Virus record (IMG/VR): IMGVR_UViG_3300042446_000849
Coordinates: 1-64,000 of that record
Origin: a virus
Direction: 5' to 3' (one strand)
DNA: 64,000 nt
Shown here one piece after another: positions 6,290 through 43,399 of this stretch. Positions within the stretch are counted from its first letter, which is position 1; each line of letters opens with the position of its first letter. The translations under genes and the position numbers were made by a program. The notes under the pieces were generated by a model that did no database searches, was not told where the DNA came from, and was given only the letters and a program-made list of their open reading frames with translations.

Positions 6290-8060
6290 ATCACAAACAC
6301 TAGACCCAACGCAGGTTTACAATACGGGGAATATTGTATTGAATACTCCTCAAGGTGGACCTACGCCTTGGGTTGGTGGTGTTTATCAAGACAATCTAAC
6401 TTGTTGGGGGCAACAGGGTGATACGGGATACTGTGGACCGAATGCTATCGTGCGTCCGGGAGGCAACATCAACTTCTCTTATGGTTCAACATATCTGTAT
6501 CAACAACAGCATATTTCAACATTACTACCTTCTGCTACGGGACTTCAAGTCAATGGATATAATTTTGGATTTACTGCAAAGAATGGTAATGGTTGGGATG
6601 ATGGTCGTGTCGACCAACTGACAGCACTTGTTCGCTTTTGGGATAACACTAATGGTAGAGCCGCAAATAATTTACTGTATGGTAACTCTTGGAATCTATC
6701 TTACAAATACAATTGGACAGATTTTAATTTTGGGGAAACATTCACGAAACCTTTGGCGGTGACTTCTATAGGTCAAGTGCAGTATGGATTTATCGGTAGA
6801 GACAATAACTTTTGGGCAGGACCATATGGACCAGAAGTCTACAATGTTAATTTCAGTTTGAAATATTCTGTAGACCCATGTGCAACTAATCCAATGTATA
6901 GTCCAACTTGTCCTGGATATTTGGATGCATTAAATAAATTACTGCCGAAGACTACAACACCATCCACAATAACAGATACAACACCATCAGGAACTATAAC
7001 AATCATTGATAATGTCGCAATATCGCCAACTGGAACTTATGGCGGTGGGCCTCCTCCGCCACCTGGAAGTCCTCCGCCCCCTGAAGGTTTACCGCCACCA
7101 CCGCCGCCATCAGGTCCTGCACTCATGGGGGCACCAGCACCAGCATCGCAAGTTGCATCTACACAACCTGCACCAAACGGGCAACAAACTAAAGTAGGTG
7201 AAGTGTCCGATTCTTCAGGCGGTTCAAAATCAACAGTATCTCTGTCGTCAGTTCTTAATATGATTGGTTCTAATCAAGAAAAGACTGCGGCACTAGAAAA
7301 ATCTGTAGTGCAAGCGGCTGATGCGCAAGCATTTTCTGCGGGTGAGACTGCTAAACAACAAGCAGAAAAAATTGCAGGTGATGTACAGTCGCAGAGCATT
7401 GCAAATAGTGGCGGTTCATCACAAACAGGAACATCACTATCGGCAGGTACACAATCGGTCACACAATTGCAAGGGGCATCTGTATCAATGCAAGGCAATC
7501 AACAGGGAAACTCCGCATCAAACTCTGCGAGACTTCAACAGTCTATCAATAGTGGTAGCATGGGTATGCAGTCCGATACAATCACTTCTAACGTAACAAC
7601 TCAGCAACAGCAATACAATATTCAAAACACTACAAGACAAGAGTTTAATGTTGCAATGGTAACACCACAAGTGTCGTACAGTTTAGTTGCACCGACAAGA
7701 TATGCACCAGTTCAAATTGAATTGCCAACGACAGAAGGAATAAAATTTGGATATAAAGGTCCAGTTGACAATGCTATGGATTCTAAATCATTCTTAACAC
7801 AAATGGATAATGGCTCGCAGCAGAATGATACAGTTAAAAAGAACGTGCAAAACAATGAAGCCGCAGGAAATGTAACTATCGAATCAATTGCGAAACAACC
7901 CGCAAATTATGCACAATATTTTACTGCGATTCCAGATGTTGCATTCTATACACCAAAAGAAATTTATAAGAATCAAAAGACTGTAGACAATGCAAGAGCA
8001 TTAAGACAATTAAGTTCTGATAAGTTACATCAAGACATGGTCAATCAACAATACAAATAA
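6222..8060 (+). CDS. Large secreted protein with polyproline linker
   Basis: A 612-residue protein. It has a signal peptide (MKLLKTLGLALCLAFSFTPL, cut near SKSQT) and an N-terminal domain (about 30-245) rich in Trp, Tyr, Asn and Gly, with NGNGWDDGRVD and DNNFWAGPYGPE and a few cysteines. A Pro-rich linker (about 275-300) with runs of 4 to 6 prolines follows, then a long Gln/Ser/Ala-rich region that looks coiled or extended. The C-terminal part contains KFGYKGPVDNAMDSKSF. It looks like an exported structural or adhesive protein, not an enzyme. Its signal peptide is encoded in a second frame over the end of the preceding repeat-protein gene, so the two are probably made together. Family not recognised. 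Confidence 0.85.
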   Translation: MKLLKTLGLALCLAFSFTPLLSKSQTLDPTQVYNTGNIVLNTPQGGPTPWVGGVYQDNLTCWGQQGDTGYCGPNAIVRPGGNINFSYGSTYLYQQQHISTLLPSATGLQVNGYNFGFTAKNGNGWDDGRVDQLTALVRFWDNTNGRAANNLLYGNSWNLSYKYNWTDFNFGETFTKPLAVTSIGQVQYGFIGRDNNFWAGPYGPEVYNVNFSLKYSVDPCATNPMYSPTCPGYLDALNKLLPKTTTPSTITDTTPSGTITIIDNVAISPTGTYGGGPPPPPGSPPPPEGLPPPPPPSGPALMGAPAPASQVASTQPAPNGQQTKVGEVSDSSGGSKSTVSLSSVLNMIGSNQEKTAALEKSVVQAADAQAFSAGETAKQQAEKIAGDVQSQSIANSGGSSQTGTSLSAGTQSVTQLQGASVSMQGNQQGNSASNSARLQQSINSGSMGMQSDTITSNVTTQQQQYNIQNTTRQEFNVAMVTPQVSYSLVAPTRYAPVQIELPTTEGIKFGYKGPVDNAMDSKSFLTQMDNGSQQNDTVKKNVQNNEAAGNVTIESIAKQPANYAQYFTAIPDVAFYTPKEIYKNQKTVDNARALRQLSSDKLHQDMVNQQYK

Positions 8061-8061
8061 T

Positions 8062-8154
8062 ATGGACCAAGAAGAATATATCTATCAATTAGTGTGTGGC
8101 ATTTTACTAGTTGTATCTTTAATTGGTATCGCATGTTATCTAATTTTAAAATAA
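8062..8154 (+). CDS. 30-residue single-pass membrane peptide
   Basis: Short ORF starting MDQEEYIYQLV, one base after the stop of the preceding gene. After an acidic head, nearly all of it is one hydrophobic helix (CGILLVVSLIGIACYLI). The next gene starts 13 bases downstream after a good ribosome site. Position, tight spacing and the clean membrane helix support it as real. Function unknown. Confidence 0.5.
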   Translation: MDQEEYIYQLVCGILLVVSLIGIACYLILK

Positions 8155-8167
8155 ACTAGGAGAAAAA

Positions 8168-8755
8168 ATGACAGAAGAAATTAAAAACGTAAACGCTAAG
8201 ATTGACGAAGCAGAAGCGGCAGTTAAGAAGTATGCAAGTAAAGATACTGTTATTAGTGTTGGTGGATATGAATTCACGCCTGCAAAATTAATGGTCGCTG
8301 CTACTATTGTGTCATCTATACTAGGTGGTTTATACGGTACATTTGAAGTATATAAAGATTACGTTGGTATGAAGAAAAAGATTGCATCATACGAAGCACC
8401 GGATTTATCAGGGTTTGATAAACGTCTAGCTGTTATAGAAGAAAACAGTTCTAAAACATCTGACTATACTCGAGACATTAAGACTGATCTAAAGAATGAT
8501 ATACGTCGTAATGAAACAGTCACTGAACAGGTAGAGCGGGGTGTAAAACAAGCTCAAAGAGAGACGGAGCAAGAAATGCGCCAGGCTCGTAAAGATATTC
8601 GTGAAGATTTAGATAAAGCTAGAGGAGAAGTAAATGCTATTCGTAAAGAAATGGCGGATGCTCGTAAAGAAATATCTAGAGAAGTTGAAGTGTTAAAGAA
8701 AGAAGTCGACGCTAAGATTCAAAAAGCTGTTGATAACCCACTGGCAAACAAATAA
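8168..8755 (+). CDS. Membrane-anchored coiled-coil protein
   Basis: 195 residues, preceded by AGGAG 7 bases before the ATG. One probable membrane segment lies at about 37-58 (PAKLMVAATIVSSILGGLYG). Beyond it, residues about 75-190 are a long charged heptad-rich coiled coil (Lys/Arg/Glu/Asp with regular Ala, Val and Ile) resembling apolipoprotein- or laminin-type helices. Probably a cytoplasmic or periplasmic rod fixed in the inner membrane. The stop TAA overlaps the next ATG (TAATG). No family recognised. Confidence 0.8.
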   Translation: MTEEIKNVNAKIDEAEAAVKKYASKDTVISVGGYEFTPAKLMVAATIVSSILGGLYGTFEVYKDYVGMKKKIASYEAPDLSGFDKRLAVIEENSSKTSDYTRDIKTDLKNDIRRNETVTEQVERGVKQAQRETEQEMRQARKDIREDLDKARGEVNAIRKEMADARKEISREVEVLKKEVDAKIQKAVDNPLANK

Positions 8756-14744: not shown

Positions 14745-15401
14745 TCAAACAATAGAGTCGGGTTCCATTGCAATGAAATACTCAATTGCTTTTGTAGCGT
14801 GTTGGAAGTGAAAAGCTTTCTTCTTTGAAATTGTAACTGTGTATGCGTCAGGGAAAATTTTAAAGTTCTCAACTGCCATATGGCAATCAAAAGAATGCTC
14901 GCTTTTACCAATTACTTTCTTGTAGGTATTTGCTGTGTCGTTTTTCTTATCACCGATAGTTAAAGAAACGTCGTCACCTTTACTGGAGATTGTGATTGTA
15001 GGTGAGCTTGTGATAGCAGCTGCCTTCATAATCATATTAACATCTTCAGATGAGAGTTTAAACTGATAGTGATTATCAATCTCAATGCTCTTGTCAGGTG
15101 CCGCAACAATAACTGTTGGGCTAGAATAGAAGTACTCAAATTTGCCGTTGTCTTTAGAAATGTTTAGGCTCTTATCACCAAACTCAACATTTTGATTTTC
15201 CATTAATGTTAGCAACGCCAACAAAGAGTTCAAATCATATACAGCTACTTCTGTGGGGAAATCTTCTACGACTTCAGCCTTAGCAAAAATGTTTTTTGCT
15301 GTACTAATTGTAGATAAAGTCTTACCTTTGCGAATCATAATATTACTATTAATCGCCGCAAAGTTCTTCAAGATTTGGATTGTTTCATTACTTATTTGCA
15401 T
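14745..15401 (-). CDS. 45: Sliding clamp gp45
   Basis: 218 residues, close to T4 gp45 (228). Matches the phage clamp fold in length, position before gp44/62/regA, and features such as AVYDLNSLLALLTLMEN. A ring of three subunits tethers gp43 to DNA and, in T4, also activates late transcription with gp33/gp55. Several proteins in this window end in a candidate clamp-binding tail. Confidence 0.9.
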   Translation of the reverse strand: MQISNETIQILKNFAAINSNIMIRKGKTLSTISTAKNIFAKAEVVEDFPTEVAVYDLNSLLALLTLMENQNVEFGDKSLNISKDNGKFEYFYSSPTVIVAAPDKSIEIDNHYQFKLSSEDVNMIMKAAAITSSPTITISSKGDDVSLTIGDKKNDTANTYKKVIGKSEHSFDCHMAVENFKIFPDAYTVTISKKKAFHFQHATKAIEYFIAMEPDSIV

Positions 15402-33785: not shown

Positions 33786-34475
33786 TTATTTCCTGTCACC
33801 AAACAGTTGCAATAGGTTAATAAACAAGTTAATGAAGTCCATGTATAAAGTTAATGCTCCACGCACCTCTGCGCTATCGCTAGTTTCTATACTAAGTTCT
33901 TCACGAATCTTTTGTGTGTCGTATGCTGTTAGTCCCAAAAATATAATAATTGCCAATGCGCTAATAACCATTTGCATTACAGTGCTACCGATAAAAATAT
34001 TGACTATACTAGCAATAATGATAGCAATTAATCCAACAAACATAAATTTGCCAAGACTATCTAGACTTTGTTTAGTAAAGTAACCATAGCCACTCATAAC
34101 ACCGAATAGGATTGCTGCACCCATAAAAGCACTGACAATACTACCCATAGTAAACACAGCAAAGATCATTGCAAAGCTCAATCCCATTAATGCCGCAAAA
34201 CCATGTAGACATAACTGGGCTACACCTTTGCTAGGATTTCTACCTAACACATAGCTAACACCAAAGATCGCTACCAGAGGTGAAAAGATTACAATCCACT
34301 TTAGTATACCCGTAAAAAAGAATTGTAGTAACTCTGGGTTAGTGCCCACAAAATAACTAATAAACATTGATACCATAACAGCAAGACTCATATGTCCGTA
34401 GACACGGCCCATTGCTGAGTTAATTTCACTTGCAGAACGATATGTCATTCCGCCTGTATAGTTTGTTCCAAACAT
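33786..34475 (-). CDS. Bax inhibitor-1 / YccA family membrane protein
   Basis: 229 residues with seven probable membrane helices. The BI-1 family signature is GLTAYDTQKIRE near 180 and ALTLYMDFINLFINLLQLFG at the end; the N-terminal polar head is about 25 residues. Bacterial members include YccA, which binds and restrains the FtsH protease, and YbhL/YetJ-like pH-dependent calcium leak channels. A phage copy could control host FtsH or membrane ion balance during infection. AGGAAC precedes the start. Confidence 0.88.
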   Translation of the reverse strand: MFGTNYTGGMTYRSASEINSAMGRVYGHMSLAVMVSMFISYFVGTNPELLQFFFTGILKWIVIFSPLVAIFGVSYVLGRNPSKGVAQLCLHGFAALMGLSFAMIFAVFTMGSIVSAFMGAAILFGVMSGYGYFTKQSLDSLGKFMFVGLIAIIIASIVNIFIGSTVMQMVISALAIIIFLGLTAYDTQKIREELSIETSDSAEVRGALTLYMDFINLFINLLQLFGDRK

Positions 34476-35080: not shown

Positions 35081-35557
35081 TTATTCAAATTCGTTATCTT
35101 CTCTGTGACCGACTCTCATTGCCATGTTTGCATCTGTTTCTCGTACTTCAACCTTACTGCACCAGACTCGTTCTGCTTCGGCTTTGCCATACATTGGGAG
35201 AAAGATAGTATTAATATACTCATAAAGAAAATCAGAAATCCCCTCACAACCTGTCTTCTCCACTTCTGTAATTTTTGCTAATTTTAATCTGCCTAATTCA
35301 AGCAAATGTTCTCGCATAGGATCATCCTGTGCGACTAATAGAGTATGGTCAAACCAATCCTCTAATTTTTCTTTTAATGGTTTAAGTCCACCAAAATCCA
35401 TACACCAATTACGAGCATCCAATGTGTCACATTCAAATTCAAAATGAAATGATAGTGCATATCCATGAACTAGATTACAATGACTATCAGCTCTCCATTG
35501 TCTGTATGCTACGGGACCTATTTGTTTATATGTTTTTGTTGAGATATATTTTGCCAT
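35081..35557 (-). CDS. queD: 6-carboxytetrahydropterin synthase-like (QueD/PTPS family)
   Basis: 158 residues with the T-fold pattern of QueD. HCNLVHGYALSFHFEFE holds the catalytic Cys27 and the zinc His31. The usual HGH is HGY here, as I recall for the phage and alphaproteobacterial subfamily. WCMDFGGLKPLKEKL and WFDHTLLVAQDDP are the conserved centre; KVEVRETDANMA at the end binds the pterin with its Glu. It converts 7,8-dihydroneopterin triphosphate to 6-carboxytetrahydropterin, the second step to 7-deazaguanine. FolE and QueE are 5-7 kb upstream in the same direction. Confidence 0.85.
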   Translation of the reverse strand: MAKYISTKTYKQIGPVAYRQWRADSHCNLVHGYALSFHFEFECDTLDARNWCMDFGGLKPLKEKLEDWFDHTLLVAQDDPMREHLLELGRLKLAKITEVEKTGCEGISDFLYEYINTIFLPMYGKAEAERVWCSKVEVRETDANMAMRVGHREDNEFE

Positions 35558-35597: not shown

Positions 35598-36629
35598 TTA
35601 GAGAGGGGTGAATGCCGGAGACCTCTTTGTCATTTTCTGAAAAGCCCTAGAATCATACCAATCGAATAAATCTTCGATAATTTTATCTAAGTTACATTCC
35701 GGCTTCCAAGAAGTTTCAGATTGTAATTTTTCAGAATTTGCAATTAATATTGCAGGATCACCATTACGGCGAGGTGCAACATTGAAAACAATGCCGTTGT
35801 TAATTCTTTCTTGATCTATTAAAAAGGTTTCTGTTTTAACAAATACTTCAAGATTAGAATATCCTTTGACTGAACCTATATTATATATGCCTTTGATATT
35901 ATTCTCAATAGCTAAGATGTGTGCTTTGGCAATATCCGTGACATGAATATAATCTCTGATACAGGTTTTATCTTTTGTCGGATAATCTATACCATACATT
36001 GTAAATGGTTCATCGTTTAGCGCTGCTTCAAAAATTTTAGCAAAAATATGAGTAGCATTTGGTTCTTGACCGTGTGTGCCACCTTCAACCGCACCGCAAG
36101 CATTGAAATATCTAAATGATACATACTGCAAACCATATGCCTTATTGTGCCAATTAAGCATCATCTCAGTCATTAGTTTGGATTCACCATATGGCGATAT
36201 TGGATTAGTATCTGATTTTTCAAATAGCATATGACTTTTTTCAGGGTCGCCATACACCGAAGCACTGCTACTAAAAATGAATTTTGTACCTGGAGAATAT
36301 TTGGTAATATATTCCAAATACTTTGCAGTTTTAGCAACATTATTTTCATAATATTCTATTGGGTCAGACATGCTTGGGCCAACCAAACTAGTACCAGCAC
36401 AATGAATAATTGCATCAGGTATATTATCAGCTATACAGTTTAATGATTTAGTATCAATAAAATCGCATTGAATGAATTCATCATAGTATGATTCTAAGTG
36501 AGAACTAACCCGCCTGTCGACACCAACTACTCTATAGCCTTGTTTCTTAAGTTCAATACAAATAGCGCCACCGATATAACCGGCGGCACCTGTGACTATA
36601 ACTGTTTTAATATTTTGCTGCTGGGACAT
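35598..36629 (-). CDS. galE: UDP-glucose 4-epimerase-like (GalE)
   Basis: 343 residues from ATG 36629, giving VIVTGAAGYIGGAICIEL near the N terminus. FSSSASVYGD and SPYGESKLMTEMM give the Ser-Tyr-Lys set; NPISPYGESK and RDYIHVTDIAKAH are GalE hallmarks. It interconverts UDP-glucose and UDP-galactose (or the N-acetyl forms). It overlaps the end of the GT-B glycosyltransferase by 23 bases, so the two are probably partners in donor supply and transfer inside the deazaguanine island. Confidence 0.88.
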   Translation of the reverse strand: MSQQQNIKTVIVTGAAGYIGGAICIELKKQGYRVVGVDRRVSSHLESYYDEFIQCDFIDTKSLNCIADNIPDAIIHCAGTSLVGPSMSDPIEYYENNVAKTAKYLEYITKYSPGTKFIFSSSASVYGDPEKSHMLFEKSDTNPISPYGESKLMTEMMLNWHNKAYGLQYVSFRYFNACGAVEGGTHGQEPNATHIFAKIFEAALNDEPFTMYGIDYPTKDKTCIRDYIHVTDIAKAHILAIENNIKGIYNIGSVKGYSNLEVFVKTETFLIDQERINNGIVFNVAPRRNGDPAILIANSEKLQSETSWKPECNLDKIIEDLFDWYDSRAFQKMTKRSPAFTPL

Positions 36630-37779
36630 GATCTCTGTAATCCTTACCACCTCGCCACCAATGTGATCCTTCGGCATTGAACATAATATCTATACAACGA
36701 TCAATAGTATTAGATGTCCAAGTAGCTAATTTGCCTAGATTGGCTCGCTCTTGAAACAATAAACTATTTAGTTTAAACACTGCATCATCTTGTGACCATG
36801 GAATGTAAAGACATTCACGATCATTGGCAAATGTTTCAGGGAATGATCTATACGCAGGGTACAAACAATTTGTACCTAGTGCATCTGCTTCTGATGCCGT
36901 ATTACTTACCCAATCTTGTAATGCACAATTAAATAATACTCGGGAATCACCTAACAACTCATAGTATTCATTCTTTTTAAGATTCTCATAGATTTTAAAA
37001 TTATGAGTCTTTTCCAATGCTCGCGCGCGATCCAAATACTTTTGATTGTTACTACGTAAAGGACCGCCTGATAAAACAGCAAATTCTACAGCAGGATTAA
37101 GTGTATGGTATCTTTCAATTAGATCCATAAAGAAATCAGGTTGTTTTTCTTGATCGAATCTTGCCGCAAACACTACACGAAGTTTGCGCTCATTAAAAGG
37201 AATCTGTTTCACTACACGACTGCGAACTTCATCTTTGTCAAATGCCAAACCAGAGATATTAAAGATTGGTGCTTCCCAACCTGCAATTTTCATATGAGCA
37301 ACCATCTCTTCGTTAGATGCAAGTACACCTGTAACAAATTGGTCTGTCATTTTCTCATATAGACCCATCCACTTCTGCATATCCCATACGTGAACGAAAT
37401 CATCTGGATCAATAGATTGTGCAAGGCAACGAACAAATATTCGAGGCTGATACTCATAACTTACTTGATCCATAATATAAGGCAATGCCTCAATACCAGG
37501 AGTAAACATATCTTCAAAAAAGATTGTATCTTCGTATGTAATTTCACCAGCTTTCATCTTCTTAATAAGATTAGCCATCTGTGTCAGCGAATAATAACTA
37601 CGACCGTGTGCATCAAGCACTTGTCCTGTTACAATTGCTTTAGAGTCATCTAAAATATCACCATGAATTACTTCATAATCAATACCTCGGCGCTTAAATG
37701 CTGCCTCACTCCAATGCTGAAGCTGCAAGGTATAACGACCTTCATACGGCTCCAAACCCATATAATATAATTTTCCCAT
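36607..37779 (-). CDS. GT-B glycosyltransferase of the deazaguanine island
   Basis: 390 residues from ATG 37779 (AGGG 8 bases upstream; the longer reading uses TTG). The N-terminal half has GLEPYEGRYTLQLQHWSE and FVHVWDMQKWMGLYEKM. The C-terminal Rossmann half has LRVVFAARFDQEKQPDFF, NEYYELLGDSRVLFNC, and SNTASEADALGTNCLYP, where a Glu lies in the donor-binding position of GT4-type enzymes. Placed between the T-fold-like gene and GalE. Acceptor unknown; modified DNA is a serious candidate from context. Confidence 0.78.
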   Translation of the reverse strand: MGKLYYMGLEPYEGRYTLQLQHWSEAAFKRRGIDYEVIHGDILDDSKAIVTGQVLDAHGRSYYSLTQMANLIKKMKAGEITYEDTIFFEDMFTPGIEALPYIMDQVSYEYQPRIFVRCLAQSIDPDDFVHVWDMQKWMGLYEKMTDQFVTGVLASNEEMVAHMKIAGWEAPIFNISGLAFDKDEVRSRVVKQIPFNERKLRVVFAARFDQEKQPDFFMDLIERYHTLNPAVEFAVLSGGPLRSNNQKYLDRARALEKTHNFKIYENLKKNEYYELLGDSRVLFNCALQDWVSNTASEADALGTNCLYPAYRSFPETFANDRECLYIPWSQDDAVFKLNSLLFQERANLGKLATWTSNTIDRCIDIMFNAEGSHWWRGGKDYRDHVPAAKY

Positions 37780-37781
37780 TA

Positions 37782-38180
37782 TCAATCCCTAGTAAAATAC
37801 ATTCTGCAACCGTTTTCGCCATCTTCTGAGACTTCGATTACATAATCTCGATCAGGCCACTGAGCAATTAATTTTGCGTGTAAATCTTTAGCAATCATCT
37901 CACAAGATTTGTGATTCAATTGCAATGTGTCTTCATTATACCAGCGTTCAATAGTACGCTTTGCTTGTATAAATTCAACATCCCTATCATCATGAAACAC
38001 TTCCATCTCAACACGGAAATGAAAAATGTGTCTATGCAAGTCTGCAAGGAAAGACACATCTAGCCAATGATCATCTGGTTTACCAAAACGCTTTGTTGCT
38101 AATTTCGGATCCGTTGCCGCTGCTGGGTAACGATGAATACCTTCCTTCTGAAAGGTAACAAAAATAAAACTCTTGTTCAT
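37782..38180 (-). CDS. T-fold-like protein of the deazaguanine island
   Basis: 132 residues. LADLHRHIFHFRVEMEVFHDD with several His, HKSCEMIAKDLHAKLI, and YVIEVSEDGENGCRMYF resemble the T-fold topology of QueD (His strand, helix, final strand with Glu), but the catalytic Cys-x3-His is not kept. This is a conserved unnamed protein in aquatic T4-like phages. It may be a divergent pterin or deazaguanine enzyme, or a binding partner. It overlaps the transglycosylase gene by 4 bases. Confidence 0.6.
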   Translation of the reverse strand: MNKSFIFVTFQKEGIHRYPAAATDPKLATKRFGKPDDHWLDVSFLADLHRHIFHFRVEMEVFHDDRDVEFIQAKRTIERWYNEDTLQLNHKSCEMIAKDLHAKLIAQWPDRDYVIEVSEDGENGCRMYFTRD

Positions 38181-39466
38181 GCAAATAAGTCCTCAAGTGT
38201 TGATGGGGCTACCTCGCTAACAGGTTCTGAATCCATAAACCTGCCAACGTTCTTTTCCCAATAAAGAAAATCATCAGTGTTTTTCACATCGAATAATGTT
38301 GAAAATTCGTTCTCACAATTTTTATCTCTGCAGAATCTTAAAAATTCTTCTTTAGAATTCATAAGTGTACTAACATCTAATGTGAAGTTATGCACATTAG
38401 TTAAGATAAATGCAAGTCTGGCTCTCATAACATCTACAAATTTGCCGCCATTTTCAAGATATTCGCCTACAGAAATATTCATTAATTTATGATAATTTTC
38501 TGCGGTATATTCTGTGCCACACACAGCATTAATTTCTGCAACAACTGTTCTATAGATATTTGAAAATGGTCTTCCCATTTTTACAGATGAGCCACCATAA
38601 TCACCGGGATTCTTTTTCTTGCTATGTGAAAAATAAAACAATCCATTATCTAAAGACATAGAATGTGTTGTCGAATCATATGAAATATCAATGCCATCAT
38701 ATAAGCCAGTTTGACTAAACAACAAATATGGCAAGATACGTTTTAATGCACCTACACCCAATACGTGTAGATGAAATGGTCTTTCAAATGGTACAGCATT
38801 AACAAAGAATGCTCGCTTAACATCTTCAAGTGGTCCCATACCTAGAGCAGCTGATCCCATAGCTACACCACCAATACGATGATGTAATTCTTTTGGAATC
38901 TCATCAAGCATTGCCTCGCCCCATAACTTATAAGTTTCTTGACCTGAACCTTGAATAATAACAAACGGTCTGCAAGAACTTTTCATATCATCAAATCTTT
39001 GAATTTGTTCTAATACATTTTTACCAGTTTGTCTAGCATAACTTTCAAAATTTTCCATGTCAACATATCTACGCTTAGTATCAATTTTAGATGACACACC
39101 AGATGCAGATGTAGACTTAACCGGAATCTCATCAAATGCCATTCCTATGTCTGCGTATGTTGCTTGATTCTCAAACACCTTATTACGAGTCTCAGATGTG
39201 TTTGGTAAACCTCTAGTAATAATCTGCAAACCTCCAGAGTCGGCATGAATGTTTTTAATTACTGGTCTAAATTTTTGTAATTTTGCACCAAAGTTCTTTT
39301 CAGTAAAACCATTATACAATAAAGAAAACTGATGATTGTTTTTATTGTGAACAGTTCTGGAAATCATGTCTTTAATCATTTCCAATGTCTCAGGGTCATT
39401 ACATTGTTCTGCACCCAACCTCAGATAAGCGGGACCTGATATAACATATTCTAATTGTCTGCTCAT
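38177..39466 (-). CDS. dpdA: TGT/DpdA-like 7-deazaguanine transglycosylase
   Basis: 429 residues of the queuine tRNA-ribosyltransferase superfamily. HADSGGLQI (74-82) matches the TGT substrate motif DSGGFQ. RIGGVAMGSAALGMG and FHLHVLGVGALKRILPYL correspond to the following TGT barrel strands, and GLYDGIDISYDSTTHS probably holds the nucleophile Asp. I do not see the CxCxxC zinc site of tRNA TGT, which fits phage DpdA proteins that put 7-deazaguanine into DNA. The last residues, STLEDLFA, look like a sliding-clamp tail (compare gp43 ATLEGLFG). FolE, QueD and QueE in the same cluster would supply the base. DNA as target is inference. Confidence 0.75.
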   Translation of the reverse strand: MSRQLEYVISGPAYLRLGAEQCNDPETLEMIKDMISRTVHNKNNHQFSLLYNGFTEKNFGAKLQKFRPVIKNIHADSGGLQIITRGLPNTSETRNKVFENQATYADIGMAFDEIPVKSTSASGVSSKIDTKRRYVDMENFESYARQTGKNVLEQIQRFDDMKSSCRPFVIIQGSGQETYKLWGEAMLDEIPKELHHRIGGVAMGSAALGMGPLEDVKRAFFVNAVPFERPFHLHVLGVGALKRILPYLLFSQTGLYDGIDISYDSTTHSMSLDNGLFYFSHSKKKNPGDYGGSSVKMGRPFSNIYRTVVAEINAVCGTEYTAENYHKLMNISVGEYLENGGKFVDVMRARLAFILTNVHNFTLDVSTLMNSKEEFLRFCRDKNCENEFSTLFDVKNTDDFLYWEKNVGRFMDSEPVSEVAPSTLEDLFA

Positions 39467-40365
39467 AAAAATAAACTTTCTAATGAAGACTTTTGTGTGT
39501 CTCCAGCTTTTTCTGTTAAATTAACTGTAATCTGTTTTAGCTTAGGATTCTTTTGCTTGAACATTCTCATCCAAGTTCCTTTTGCTACTGTATCTTGTTT
39601 AGGCAAGTTCCATATCTCTGATATAAATTTTAGACCAGATGCTGTTCTTTCCCATCTTTGTTCTGCAGTCATTCCGGTTGACCAAGTAGACTTTTCGGGA
39701 GTTGCTTGTTCTTCTTTAAAAATAATGTTATTACAGATAAAAACACCTAGACCGTTTTGAATAAATTCAATACCAAAATTTTGATCTTCACACGGAATTA
39801 GAGTACCATCCGAATTGACAAACTTCTCATCAAAATATATTTCTTTATTGTGATGTTTCTTAATATTCTTAATAATTAGAATACTTGTTTTTGTCATAAA
39901 TGTTGGCCTGAATCTCCATCTAATTTTATCACCTTCAGCGTTTTCTGTCAAGTCCTTTGTGAAAGGCTGATTAGCAGGATTGACAGGTAAAAACATATCT
40001 ACGTCTGCAAGATTCTCAAATGGAATATTTCTGAATGTTTGAACAAAGGTATCATTCGCCCCATACTTTTGACCAGTATAAAGGTATGTGTCGTTGTCAG
40101 CAAAAATGGCATAATCCTCATCCGAATTGTAAAATTCTTTTAAGAGGACATTTCTTGCATCACCTGGAGTTAATACTTTACCTTGGTGTTTGATATATTG
40201 AACACCATCTTCGTATTGTTCTTCTTTGTAATTTTGAGCAAACACTACAGGCTGAAGATCATTTTTCTTAACCCAATCTAATTGCCGTTTGTGTATTTCT
40301 GCACGTCTAGCATTTGTGCTATCAGGGCCGAACCATGATATAATGTAGCATTTCTCAAACTTCAT
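39463..40365 (-). CDS. GT-A glycosyltransferase with clamp-like C terminus
   Basis: 300 residues. KCYIISWFGPDSTNARR opens the fold, DYAIFADNDTYLYTG gives a DxD metal site, and IPCEDQNFGIEF is the acceptor-side acidic motif of GT-A enzymes. The end, KSSLESLFL, matches the candidate clamp-binding tail of gp43 and the DpdA-like protein, directly downstream with a 4-base overlap. It is therefore a candidate DNA glycosyltransferase, comparable in logic to T4 alpha-glucosyltransferase, which has been reported to contact gp45. Substrate not proved. Confidence 0.7.
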   Translation of the reverse strand: MKFEKCYIISWFGPDSTNARRAEIHKRQLDWVKKNDLQPVVFAQNYKEEQYEDGVQYIKHQGKVLTPGDARNVLLKEFYNSDEDYAIFADNDTYLYTGQKYGANDTFVQTFRNIPFENLADVDMFLPVNPANQPFTKDLTENAEGDKIRWRFRPTFMTKTSILIIKNIKKHHNKEIYFDEKFVNSDGTLIPCEDQNFGIEFIQNGLGVFICNNIIFKEEQATPEKSTWSTGMTAEQRWERTASGLKFISEIWNLPKQDTVAKGTWMRMFKQKNPKLKQITVNLTEKAGDTQKSSLESLFL

Positions 40366-40875
40366 TTACTCACCTAGCATTTTAATCAAGTGTTTTGTCT
40401 GATGCATAGCATCGTCAAGAGCATTATGGTAAACGCCTTCTCGTTCGTCAGCAGGAATCCAATTGAATAATGCCTTTACTGTACGATAACATCTATCATC
40501 CCAGCATTTCCATGGTGGTTCTCTGTCTGTAATAAAGTAGGCATTTGATAAAATTGTATTATCAAAGACAGCACCGTTGCCCCAAACAGGCAAACTCTTA
40601 GGACCAAACCATTCCTCAAAATCATCTAATGCTTGATTCAAAGGAATGTTATTACGAGTAAGTTCTCGCAAAGCTTCTTTATTTTGCTCCGACCACCATT
40701 TGATAGTTTCTTTAGAAACATGCATACCTACATCTTTGCAGGTTTTAAGATCAATGGTGCAATAGAAGGTATCTAAAATTTCTTTACCTTCAAATTTTAC
40801 TGCACCAATTGAACAGATAGCGGCATTTGATCTTGTTGACATTGTCTCCAAGTCAACCATTACATTAACTGTCAT
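40366..40875 (-). CDS. DEDDh 3'-5' exonuclease (Rv2179c-like)
   Basis: 169 residues. MVDLETMSTR holds the first Asp and Glu, VWGNGAVFDNTIL the second Asp, and YHNALDDAMHQ the His and last Asp. This is the DnaQ-type exonuclease set, of the small Rv2179c-like group found in phages. It would trim DNA or RNA 3' ends. Located between folE (4-base overlap) and the glycosyltransferase (no gap), so made with the modification genes. Confidence 0.85.
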   Translation of the reverse strand: MTVNVMVDLETMSTRSNAAICSIGAVKFEGKEILDTFYCTIDLKTCKDVGMHVSKETIKWWSEQNKEALRELTRNNIPLNQALDDFEEWFGPKSLPVWGNGAVFDNTILSNAYFITDREPPWKCWDDRCYRTVKALFNWIPADEREGVYHNALDDAMHQTKHLIKMLGE

Positions 40876-41552
40876 TTACATCCTTGTCTTGCAATCTGAT
40901 AAAATTCATTTCTAACTTCTGGGTGATTTTTAAATCCGCCACCTAAACGAACTGTTACTGTAGAACTACCTGTATCTTCAACGCCTCTAGATTTGACACA
41001 ATAGTGTTGTGCATCAATTAATACAGCAACATCTTCAGTATCAAGAATATATTGTAGTGTGTGGAAAATTTGTTCTGTTAGTCGTTCTTGAATCTGTGGT
41101 CGCTTGCTGAAATATTCTACAATACGATTAATTTTAGATAGACCAAGAACTTTGTTCTTCGGAACATAAGCAACAGTTGCTAAACCATCGATAACAACAA
41201 AGTGATGTTCACAATTAGATTGAACATTAACATTGCGCTCAACAACCATTTCATTATATTTCATTTTGTTGTCAACGGTTGTGCATTTAGGGAATGCATC
41301 ATAATCGAGTCCCCAAAAGATTTCGTTAACATACATTTTAGCAACACGTTTAGGAGTCTCATTTAGACTATCGTCATCTAAGTCGAGACCTAATACCTGC
41401 ATAATATGTGCAAAGCTTTTTTCAATTTCCGCAATTTTATCTTTGCGATCCATTGATATTTTAAATGTTGGTGTTTCCACTCCCATTTTAACCAAATGTT
41501 CGTGAACTTGTTGTCCCAATAATGGGTCTGTTTTTGTCTTGTTATATGACAT
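40872..41552 (-). CDS. folE: GTP cyclohydrolase I
   Basis: 226 residues. The zinc site is in SNCEHHFVVIDG and AQHYCVKSRGVEDTGS, and YVPKNKVLGLSKINRIVEYFS is diagnostic. It opens GTP to dihydroneopterin triphosphate, the first step of both folate and 7-deazaguanine synthesis. Near QueD, QueE and a DpdA-like gene, the deazaguanine role is likely. A TATAAATA box (41613) and a small hairpin lie in the gap upstream, so late expression of this half of the cluster is possible. Confidence 0.95.
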   Translation of the reverse strand: MSYNKTKTDPLLGQQVHEHLVKMGVETPTFKISMDRKDKIAEIEKSFAHIMQVLGLDLDDDSLNETPKRVAKMYVNEIFWGLDYDAFPKCTTVDNKMKYNEMVVERNVNVQSNCEHHFVVIDGLATVAYVPKNKVLGLSKINRIVEYFSKRPQIQERLTEQIFHTLQYILDTEDVAVLIDAQHYCVKSRGVEDTGSSTVTVRLGGGFKNHPEVRNEFYQIARQGCK

Positions 41553-41620: not shown

Positions 41621-42469
41621 TTAAGTGCCCCATGCATTTTTAAATAATGGGATTTGTAATCTGTCGGAATATCTCCAACCTTTTTTCATTGCCAATTCTG
41701 CAACACTACGATTGTTCAACGAATACATTTCTTCTGTACCACCACAAGGCATAATATAAACAGCGCCACCGAAACCAGATTTGCGATATTCATTTACTGC
41801 TTGTTCTGCTTCTTCAGCATCTTCTTTAGTTGCAACTACAAATTTAAGATATGTATTACCTAACAATTGATATTGTTGAACAACTTCTGGTCTGATTGCA
41901 TCTTCCCATTTTTCACCGCTAATTGATAATTTAGGGGATACTGAAAATGTTATATTACCATAGTCTCGACCAAACCTTGTCCACTCCTGAAATAAGTATT
42001 CATCAAACTCATCAGTTATAAGTTGTGTACCATTAGTTTCAAAAGTAAGTTCTTTTAGAGCTTGCATCTTAGGATGTTCTAAAAGATCAGGATAAGCTTT
42101 TTGCCAACCCAATAAAGGCTCACCGCCTGTAATTACAAGATGTTCGTCTCGCCATTCCTTGTACGGTAACGTATCAACAATAGCATCGGCAATCGCATCA
42201 GTAGAAAGAACGGGAGACAAATGCTTAAAACGAGGATCCCAAGAAGCATAACTATCACAACCCGTAGACACCAAAGGTAACGATTTATATTCTGTATACT
42301 TAGAAGGGTCAACATTGTTTGCTTCATTGCTAAGTTCTCCTTTAGGCATACCAAAACCTGCACATTTAAAGTTACAACCAAATGTTCTTAAAAACACTGA
42401 GGGTACGCCCATATAGCGACCTTCACCCTGTATGCTATAAAATAATTCTGCAATCTTAATTTTGCTCAT
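41621..42469 (-). CDS. queE: 7-carboxy-7-deazaguanine synthase (QueE, radical SAM)
   Basis: 282 residues from ATG 42469; the longer reading uses TTG. LFYSIQGEGRYMGVPSVFLR is the QueE start. The cluster Cys residues are TFGCNFKC and then, after about 34 residues, TGCDSYASWD, so the usual Cx3CxxC is split by an insertion. LVITGGEPLLGW is the SAM-binding motif; TFETNGTQLI and NITFSVSPKLS follow. It turns 6-carboxytetrahydropterin into 7-carboxy-7-deazaguanine. It overlaps the MazG-like gene by 14 bases. Confidence 0.9.
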   Translation of the reverse strand: MSKIKIAELFYSIQGEGRYMGVPSVFLRTFGCNFKCAGFGMPKGELSNEANNVDPSKYTEYKSLPLVSTGCDSYASWDPRFKHLSPVLSTDAIADAIVDTLPYKEWRDEHLVITGGEPLLGWQKAYPDLLEHPKMQALKELTFETNGTQLITDEFDEYLFQEWTRFGRDYGNITFSVSPKLSISGEKWEDAIRPEVVQQYQLLGNTYLKFVVATKEDAEEAEQAVNEYRKSGFGGAVYIMPCGGTEEMYSLNNRSVAELAMKKGWRYSDRLQIPLFKNAWGT

Positions 42470-42746
42470 ATTCACTTTCAAAAATAGTAGACCATTTCTT
42501 TAGTTTTTCAATTTTAGCCAATTTAGCAACACGCAAATGTTCTAAGTCAACTACACCCATACCGCATAAAATATCTATCATAGCCAGCATGTCACCGAGC
42601 TCTTCTTCTAGATGTTCTCTATTTGTTTTGGGTTTGTTGGGTTTAAAATTGTCAATACCAAAGCGTTCGCATTTGCTAACTGCTTGTATAACTTCAGCAC
42701 ATTCTTCTTGCAGAATGTTAAAGACTTCTTTGATTTTTGTATTCAT
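42456..42746 (-). CDS. MazG-like nucleotide pyrophosphohydrolase
   Basis: 96 residues. NILQEECAEVIQAVSK and HLEEELGDMLAMIDILC hold the paired EExxE/ExxD metal sites of the MazG/dUTPase-2 group. It may hydrolyse (d)NTPs or alarmones; common in T4-like phages. Coupled to QueE, it could remove an unmodified nucleotide or balance GTP, but this is a guess. Confidence 0.82.
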   Translation of the reverse strand: MNTKIKEVFNILQEECAEVIQAVSKCERFGIDNFKPNKPKTNREHLEEELGDMLAMIDILCGMGVVDLEHLRVAKLAKIEKLKKWSTIFESEYEQN

Positions 42747-42763
42747 AACGAATTATATGACAT

Positions 42764-43399
42764 TTAGTCAGTAATGTCAATTATGGGATTATCCTTTTCA
42801 GACGCTTTCTTTTTACGAGCTTTTGTCTCGGATGCCGTTTCTCGTTTTTCGGGATCGATTGTGTCTAATTGCTTTTTCAAATAATCAATCAAATGGCGGC
42901 CTGCTTCCGAATCTTCTGCATTTTGAATAATAGAATCAATATCCATATTCTCCATGAGTTTATATTTCGTTGCCTGTTGTTTCTTTTCCTTTTGAATTCT
43001 GCGAATAAAGGCAAAGTAAATAATTTGAGTATAATAGGCAAATGGATTAGATGATTTTGTGGGATCAAATTTTGCAACAGCAGTTAGGCAATTTTCAATG
43101 CCATCCGAAACCATATCATCTCTAAATGTGTAATTGATAAAATTAGATTTATATGATAAATGTGTTGCAATTTTAATAAAGCATTCGCCTATATATCGAG
43201 GTACTCGAGTCGGTTCCTCTCCTGCAGCTTTGGCTTTGTCTAATGCCTCTTTATATTCTATAAGAGCAGCAAGAAACTGTTTGTTGTTTACATAATGGGC
43301 AGGGGCCTTGGCGGGGATTTCTTCTTTAATGAAGGATTCTTCTATTTCCTCGATCAATTCTAATATCTCGCTCTCCGGCGTCGTCGTTGTTTTCGTCAT
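42764..43399 (-). CDS. 55: Late sigma factor gp55
   Basis: 211 residues with AGGAG 6 bases before the ATG. The sigma region 2 is visible: YRDDMVSDG-like (FRDDMVSDGIENCL), then FDPTKSSNPFAYYTQIIYFAFIRRIQ, typical of gp55/sigma70 region 2. It directs host RNA polymerase to TATAAATA late promoters, of which several are seen here. The first 74 bases overlap the Sm-like gene. gp33, its partner, was not found in this window. Confidence 0.9.
   Translation of the reverse strand: MTKTTTTPESEILELIEEIEESFIKEEIPAKAPAHYVNNKQFLAALIEYKEALDKAKAAGEEPTRVPRYIGECFIKIATHLSYKSNFINYTFRDDMVSDGIENCLTAVAKFDPTKSSNPFAYYTQIIYFAFIRRIQKEKKQQATKYKLMENMDIDSIIQNAEDSEAGRHLIDYLKKQLDTIDPEKRETASETKARKKKASEKDNPIIDITD

Follow-up and report, generated by a model that had tools for sequence, protein, structure and literature searches.

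Clamp-like C-terminal tails on a DpdA2-type enzyme and on glycosyltransferases of a T4-like phage suggest tethering to the gp45 sliding clamp

In a T4-like phage, the DNA polymerase gp43, a DpdA2-type base-exchange enzyme and a putative glycosyltransferase (GT) end in the same short motif, that of the clamp-interacting peptide (CIP) of T4 gp43. This tail is specific to these proteins, is conserved, matches the tail of the phage's own polymerase and occurs on two unrelated GT types. From sequence and by analogy with T4, we propose, with a probability of about 0.85, that the DpdA and GT tails bind gp45 and would thereby keep both base exchange and glycosylation at the sliding clamp. The proposal draws on the T4 CIP in its gp45 pocket, on the interchangeability of T4 tails and on a helical turn in the DpdA model.

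Results

Three proteins of the window end in a common motif

The window, the whole stretch of DNA analyzed, spans positions 1-64000 of a virus record 119,376 bases long. Its features are collected in Table 1 with those of compared sequences, for which G and L numbers are our handles.

Table 1. Positions of the features in the window and, where a handle or phage is named, in compared sequences
Feature	Position	Strand	Evidence
gp43 family-B DNA polymerase, 830 aa	2488..4980	-	PHROG 262, E=0
gp43 C-terminal clamp-interacting peptide ATLEGLFG, codons	2491..2514	-	T4 counterpart SLDFLFG (PMC12746103)
gp45 sliding clamp, 218 aa, proposed partner	14745..15401	-	PHROG 223, 3e-64; PF09116; PDB 1b77/1b8h, 1.7e-17
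QueD-like 6-pyruvoyl tetrahydropterin synthase	35081..35557	-	PHROG 2389, 1.5e-41
NAD-dependent nucleotide-sugar epimerase	35598..36677	-	PF01370, 1.2e-55
Second island GT, GT-B (Glycos_transf_1), no clamp-like tail	36607..37785	-	PF00534, 6.5e-7; ends DHVPAAKY
DpdA2-type DNA base-exchange (transglycosylase) enzyme, 429 aa	38177..39466	-	PHROG 10773, predicted fold, motifs
DpdA C-terminal clamp-like tail STLEDLFA, codons	38180..38203	-	Translation, conservation, covariation
Putative GT-A-type glycosyltransferase, 300 aa, DxD-like FADND motif	39463..40365	-	Translation, tblastn, L202 homologue
GT C-terminal clamp-like tail SSLESLFL, codons	39466..39489	-	Translation
FolE GTP cyclohydrolase I (7-deazaguanine precursor pathway)	40872..41552	-	PF01227, 2.1e-61
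QueE-like radical SAM enzyme	41621..42481	-	PHROG 2076, 2.4e-55
Phosso GT-A homologue	L446 1189-2061 and L457		
DpdA1 of siphophages	L448 (Enterobacteria phage 9g) 3007-3960; L449-L454		
Baseplate-hub-like look-alike	G000:90375-91067; BUCT-ZZ01 7844-8554; Ps15 95916-96677; X1 84546-85328		

Translation reproduced the three endings as the first-pass annotation had written them, ATLEGLFG for gp43, STLEDLFA for the DpdA-like protein (...APSTLEDLFA in longer form) and SSLESLFL for the GT (...QKSSLESLFL). That annotation also set each tail behind a flexible linker. All three are indeed at the extreme C terminus, and model confidence points to a linker in DpdA; for the GT, whose AlphaFold model is poor (mean pLDDT 45, shallow alignment; nothing below 0.01 in Foldseek), flexibility is suggested by the sequence alone.

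We defined a strict motif, [ST]L[DE]x[LF]F plus 0-2 trailing residues at the C terminus, and counted it in non-overlapping open reading frames (ORFs) of at least 45 codons, taking its internal frequency in seven genomes (the phage's own, G001, G002, BUCT-ZZ01, ACP17, Ps15 and X1) as the chance expectation. The 119-kb record has the motif in 3 of 156 such ORFs, exactly gp43, DpdA and the GT, compared with 0.0066 expected (P(>=3)=4.7e-8). In the seven genomes together (1,735 ORFs), 18 C-terminal matches were found against 0.07 expected, every one of them gp43, DpdA or a tailed GT. These counts reject a chance origin of the common tail. A looser motif also catches a baseplate-hub-like protein (LEGLQNFFV or LETFFA after a cysteine motif), so the motif alone is no proof. 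In that protein the cysteine motif is followed by LxGLExFF, a clamp-tail look-alike that is probably structural.

The gp55 of the record (42764-43399), considered as a further carrier, lacks the strict motif and ends NPIIDITD, unlike T4 gp55 (SLDFLYEAND), which shares the motif of the window tails with T4 gp43 (SLDFLFG). In relatives, gp55 ends SNNPLDLD, SMDFLDE or TIDLLT. The endings of this phage and its relatives are perhaps drifted forms of the T4 gp55 clamp tail.

The base-exchange enzyme keeps its tail behind a variable linker

The 429-aa protein matches PHROG 10773 (8.7e-93), as does the DpdA2 of Vibrio phage nt-1 (1.5e-211), and TIGR00430 Tgt (8.5e-6). The nt-1 enzyme was named DpdA2 by Hutinet et al. 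(2019), and nt-1 phage DNA contains dPreQ0 (PMC6884629). A sequence search of the PDB returned no matches to the window protein. Its AlphaFold (AF2) model, built on a 51-sequence alignment (pLDDT 92.3, pTM 0.91), has TGT 7ovs (3.4e-8) and 7ovo and the DNA preQ0 insertase DpdA 7ui4 (2e-7) as its first Foldseek matches in the PDB. The motifs DSGGLQ, FDxIP and SxDS are invariant, as are D76, D112 and D264. By homology, the TGT-like predicted fold and the conserved aspartates, we assign the protein to DpdA2 within the TGT superfamily.

Model confidence stays at about 95 as far as residue ~410 and then falls to 89 in residues 411-420 and 68 in 421-429, with one low-confidence helical turn at 424-428. 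Among the 51 DpdA2 sequences, linker columns 417-422 vary freely (entropy 3.1-3.4 bits, except P421 at 1.6), whereas L424 (0.28; 49/51) and F428 (0.00; 49/49) are nearly fixed; orthologues thus retain the tail behind an otherwise variable segment, which the first-pass annotation had named as a check. The strict motif is present in 109 of 138 distinct DpdA ORFs from IMG/VR and named phages, and in 37 of 55 once sequences more than 80% identical are removed. Most other endings are relaxed forms such as LEDMF, SLPEDF, TVDSLF or SLELEF.

The DpdA2 proteins of Vibrio phages nt-1, 1.081.O and their relatives, and of pf16, carry no tail, although gp43 of nt-1, 1.081.O and pf16 ends in an FF-type tail. 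The tail is therefore not essential to the enzyme family. The nt-1 DpdA2 has the same PHROG and TGT fold at 29% identity to the window DpdA; in contrast to this tailless type, the window clade is tailed and lies beside a tailed GT.

A DUF5591 (ArcS-type domain) protein near DpdA2 in nt-1 (L094 4498-5178) ends NSLANFF, with gp43 ending TLESFFG, and an apparently unrelated protein in the same place in 1.081.O (L095 3396-4085) ends GLLAFFG. In these two phages a different enzyme may carry the tail.

The DpdA tail follows the tail of the phage's own polymerase

Within each contig we paired the ending of gp43 with that of DpdA, and we compared summed BLOSUM62 scores with those of permuted pairs. 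For 26 tailed pairs, which are not fully independent by descent, the score was 576 against 482±20, and 0 of 5000 permutations scored as high. Individual gp43/DpdA pairs show the match: TVDDLFG/TVDSLFD in G054, the sole V at that alignment position; SLEDFFG/TLENFFE in G014; and TLDDFFS/SLDSFFD in BUCT-ZZ01, where the GT-B also has the FF variant (GSLEDFFND). Other pairs are SLDDLFE/TLDELFE in ACP17, NTLDF/NILDL in G057, and TLDDLF-end/SLPEDF-end in G044. Since gp43 and DpdA are non-homologous, the likeness of their endings points to a common partner.

That partner could in principle be the host beta clamp or another shared protein. LExLF is akin to the QLxLF-type clamp motifs of bacteria, siphophage DpdA1 ends in [QM]xLF, and phage 9g has an annotated beta-type clamp adjoining dpdA. 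However, the tails vary with the polymerase tail of the same phage (V, FF and truncated forms), and the gp43 of the T4 family uses gp45, so we regard a host or other partner as highly improbable and gp45 as the probable one. Pocket residues known from RB69 are only partly kept in the gp45 of the window (Y39 is F, W199 is S), which counts against the proposal, although the protein must bind its own gp43 despite these changes; the pocket comparison is only partly informative.

In siphophages (Queuovirinae and others, to ~49% identity), the C terminus of DpdA1 likewise has a variable segment and then [QM]xLF or a close form, similar to the bacterial beta-clamp motif: RLQDLFDE in 9g, RVQELF in PSTCR7, RIQELF in Pa-V, RVMELF in Greed and EQMELF in VPv64. 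DpdA1 and DpdA2 may both be clamp-tethered.

The gp43 gene is interrupted in two relatives (G035:37586-40336 and G014:54892-58668), as pieces with an in-frame stop or as two ORFs 1.1 kb apart, which suggests that the polymerase is split or that its gene holds an intron or insertion.

Two unrelated glycosyltransferase types carry the tail

The 300-aa neighbor of dpdA matches annotated phage glycosyltransferases in tblastn (1e-9 and 6e-8) and has a homologue in L202 at 34% identity. Pfam gave it no family match, including to the T4 alpha-GT family PF11440, and a PDB sequence search found nothing relevant. A FADND motif and an N-terminal alpha/beta order that fits GT-A make it a putative GT-A enzyme.

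Close relatives, with DpdA proteins 72-86% identical, have instead a 447-457-aa GT-B-type gene directly before dpdA, unrelated to the GT-A and with weak Glycos_transf_1 matches. At this position the GT-B ends LESLF[SAVE] or LEDLFA, and 49 of 51 distinct GT-B homologues end in the motif; the exceptions are a variant in L197 (ISFDDIF) and a copy in X1 that lies far from dpdA and lacks it. Tailed GT-B genes also lie downstream of dpdA (L233), ~4.8 kb off (L455) and behind a ~976-bp insertion before dpdA (L162, L185, L186). The insertion (L162 3696-4670; L185 4005-4979) resembles a minus-strand homing-endonuclease gene, and both tails are kept on either side of it.

The tail of the window GT-A might be passive: had the GT-A replaced a GT-B by recombination within the GT/dpdA junction, the last codons would have been left behind, and only the gp43, DpdA and GT-B tails would be functional. 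The junction DNA (TTAGAAAGTTTATT..ATGAGC) is near-identical between the GT-A and GT-B versions, and a GT-A at this position is limited to a group of close copies. But GT-A homologues of another lineage are tailed as well, downstream of dpdA (L202, L468, L469, ending SLEDLFS) or in loci with no dpdA (L466, L467, L470, L471, ending ASLEDLF). The GT-A homologue of the 469-kb jumbo Sinorhizobium phage Phosso, moreover, ends TQLSDLFDFG, like the TTFNDLFTF of its own family-B polymerase. We therefore consider a passive GT-A tail unlikely and favor a functional tail on both GT types. The lineage of the window GT-A itself consists of close copies (>=97%) and one 51% relative (L465) ending NHLRSLFEGI.

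The tail persists away from overlapping gene starts

The GT and dpdA genes of the window overlap as ATGA, and the common residues could be a by-product of translation signals, with the purine-rich E-x codons (TTAGAAAG, CTTGAGGAC and TTAGAAGGA) serving as Shine-Dalgarno sites for the next gene. All three window tails end in ATGA with GAAAG, GAGGA or GAAGGA ~9 nt before the next ATG, and close relatives show good conservation of the tail at the nucleotide level. The remaining ATGA genes of the window nevertheless end differently, and DpdA keeps its tail where the next start is distant (+42 nt in BUCT-ZZ01, +35 in Ps15, +71 in X1 and +69 in L309) or where there is no adjacent gene or the stop precedes the ribosome site (L317, L324, L262, L297, L314, L206, L218). 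Non-overlapping DpdA tails often have Asp codons and use all six Leu codons. The next gene does not overlap gp43 in ACP17 and Ps15, and tailed GT-B (L233, L162, L185, L186, L455) and GT-A (L202, L466-L471) genes lie away from the junction. Tailed lineages with no overlap refute translation signals as the sole cause, and we regard this explanation as highly improbable; in the close clade, a further constraint on the nucleotides is likely. Binding of the tails to gp45 remains our preferred reading.

Discussion

Short peptides that tie a DNA-modifying enzyme to a sliding clamp exist elsewhere, as in DNMT1-PCNA, although enzyme, clamp system and organism are unrelated to those described here. In T4, the alpha-glucosyltransferase was reportedly found bound to gp45 by Sommer et al. 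in 2004.

The closest counterparts are the CIP/SCBM peptides of T4 and RB69. The first-pass annotation had stated that T4 gp43 holds gp45 by its C-terminal tail, and published work bears this out: the CIP, 892-SLDFLF-897, forms a single helical turn in the gp45 pocket, and gp43 that lacks its final six residues no longer associates with the clamp (PMC12746103). The tails of gp43, gp55 and gp33 are interchangeable (PMC2988020). Like these peptides, the tails described here lie at the extreme C terminus, follow a linker (variable in DpdA), read [ST]L[DE]xLF and match the phage's own clamp system; they differ in being carried by DNA-modifying enzymes instead of a polymerase, sigma factor or co-activator. 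Peptides of this type bind gp45 in T4 and RB69, and we infer the same binding in this phage.

The annotation had also cited a contact between T4 alpha-GT and gp45. The contact stands, since the enzyme co-purifies with gp45 in a pull-down (PMC13216743); the tail does not extend to it, as the protein ends ...CFKEQFDIITK. Both T4 alpha-GT and beta-GT end otherwise, which rejects the idea that the tail is characteristic of the T4 GT families. The T4 alpha-GT is thus a clamp-associated DNA glycosyltransferase with no LDxLF tail, and it belongs to another enzyme family (PF11440) and to the hydroxymethylcytosine pathway, compared with 7-deazaguanine here. The alpha share in T4 is set by expression strength and not by clamp binding (PMC13216743).

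We propose that the last ~7 residues of DpdA2 and the GT act like the CIP of T4 gp43: each would hang on a flexible linker and dock in the hydrophobic pocket of one gp45 protomer. As gp45 is a trimer, a ring left by gp43 on fresh double-stranded DNA would have free pockets. From one, DpdA2 would exchange guanine for a 7-deazaguanine base; from another, the GT would decorate the new DNA, presumably at the inserted base. Such a tether would raise the local enzyme concentration and aim modification at replicating phage DNA, which bears the phage's own clamp. In this scheme we presume when and in what order the two reactions take place and what the GT acts on. The first-pass annotation suggested that the motif would place both reactions at the replication fork, a placement that we would make only provisionally, given that gp45 also has a role in late transcription (PMC2988020, PMC7892883).

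A bolder version, which we advance tentatively and lean slightly against, makes gp45 a modification tool-belt. DpdA2 and an exchangeable tailed GT (GT-A or GT-B) would occupy pockets of the same ring, base exchange followed by glycosylation on fresh phage DNA would give an undescribed glycosylated 7-deazaguanine, and a clamp tail would mark phage GTs that act on DNA.

The single components, namely the clamp peptide, DpdA2 and a phage GT bound to the clamp, are already known. In the literature searched, we found no portable tail that matches the polymerase and is shared by a base-exchange enzyme and two unrelated GT types, and no relevant paper linking DpdA with a sliding clamp. To the largely open question of how phages direct hypermodification to their own new genomes, a portable clamp tail carried by enzymes of base exchange and glycosylation would offer a direct mechanism as an answer. 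The tail could also serve as a sequence mark for DNA-modifying enzymes among phage 'hypothetical' proteins, and it points to DNA, not surface sugars, as the substrate of the tailed GTs in these islands.

No QueC was found in the partial record of this phage. The window also encodes a Bax1-I (BI-1 family) membrane protein at 33786-34475 (PF01027, 6.9e-53).
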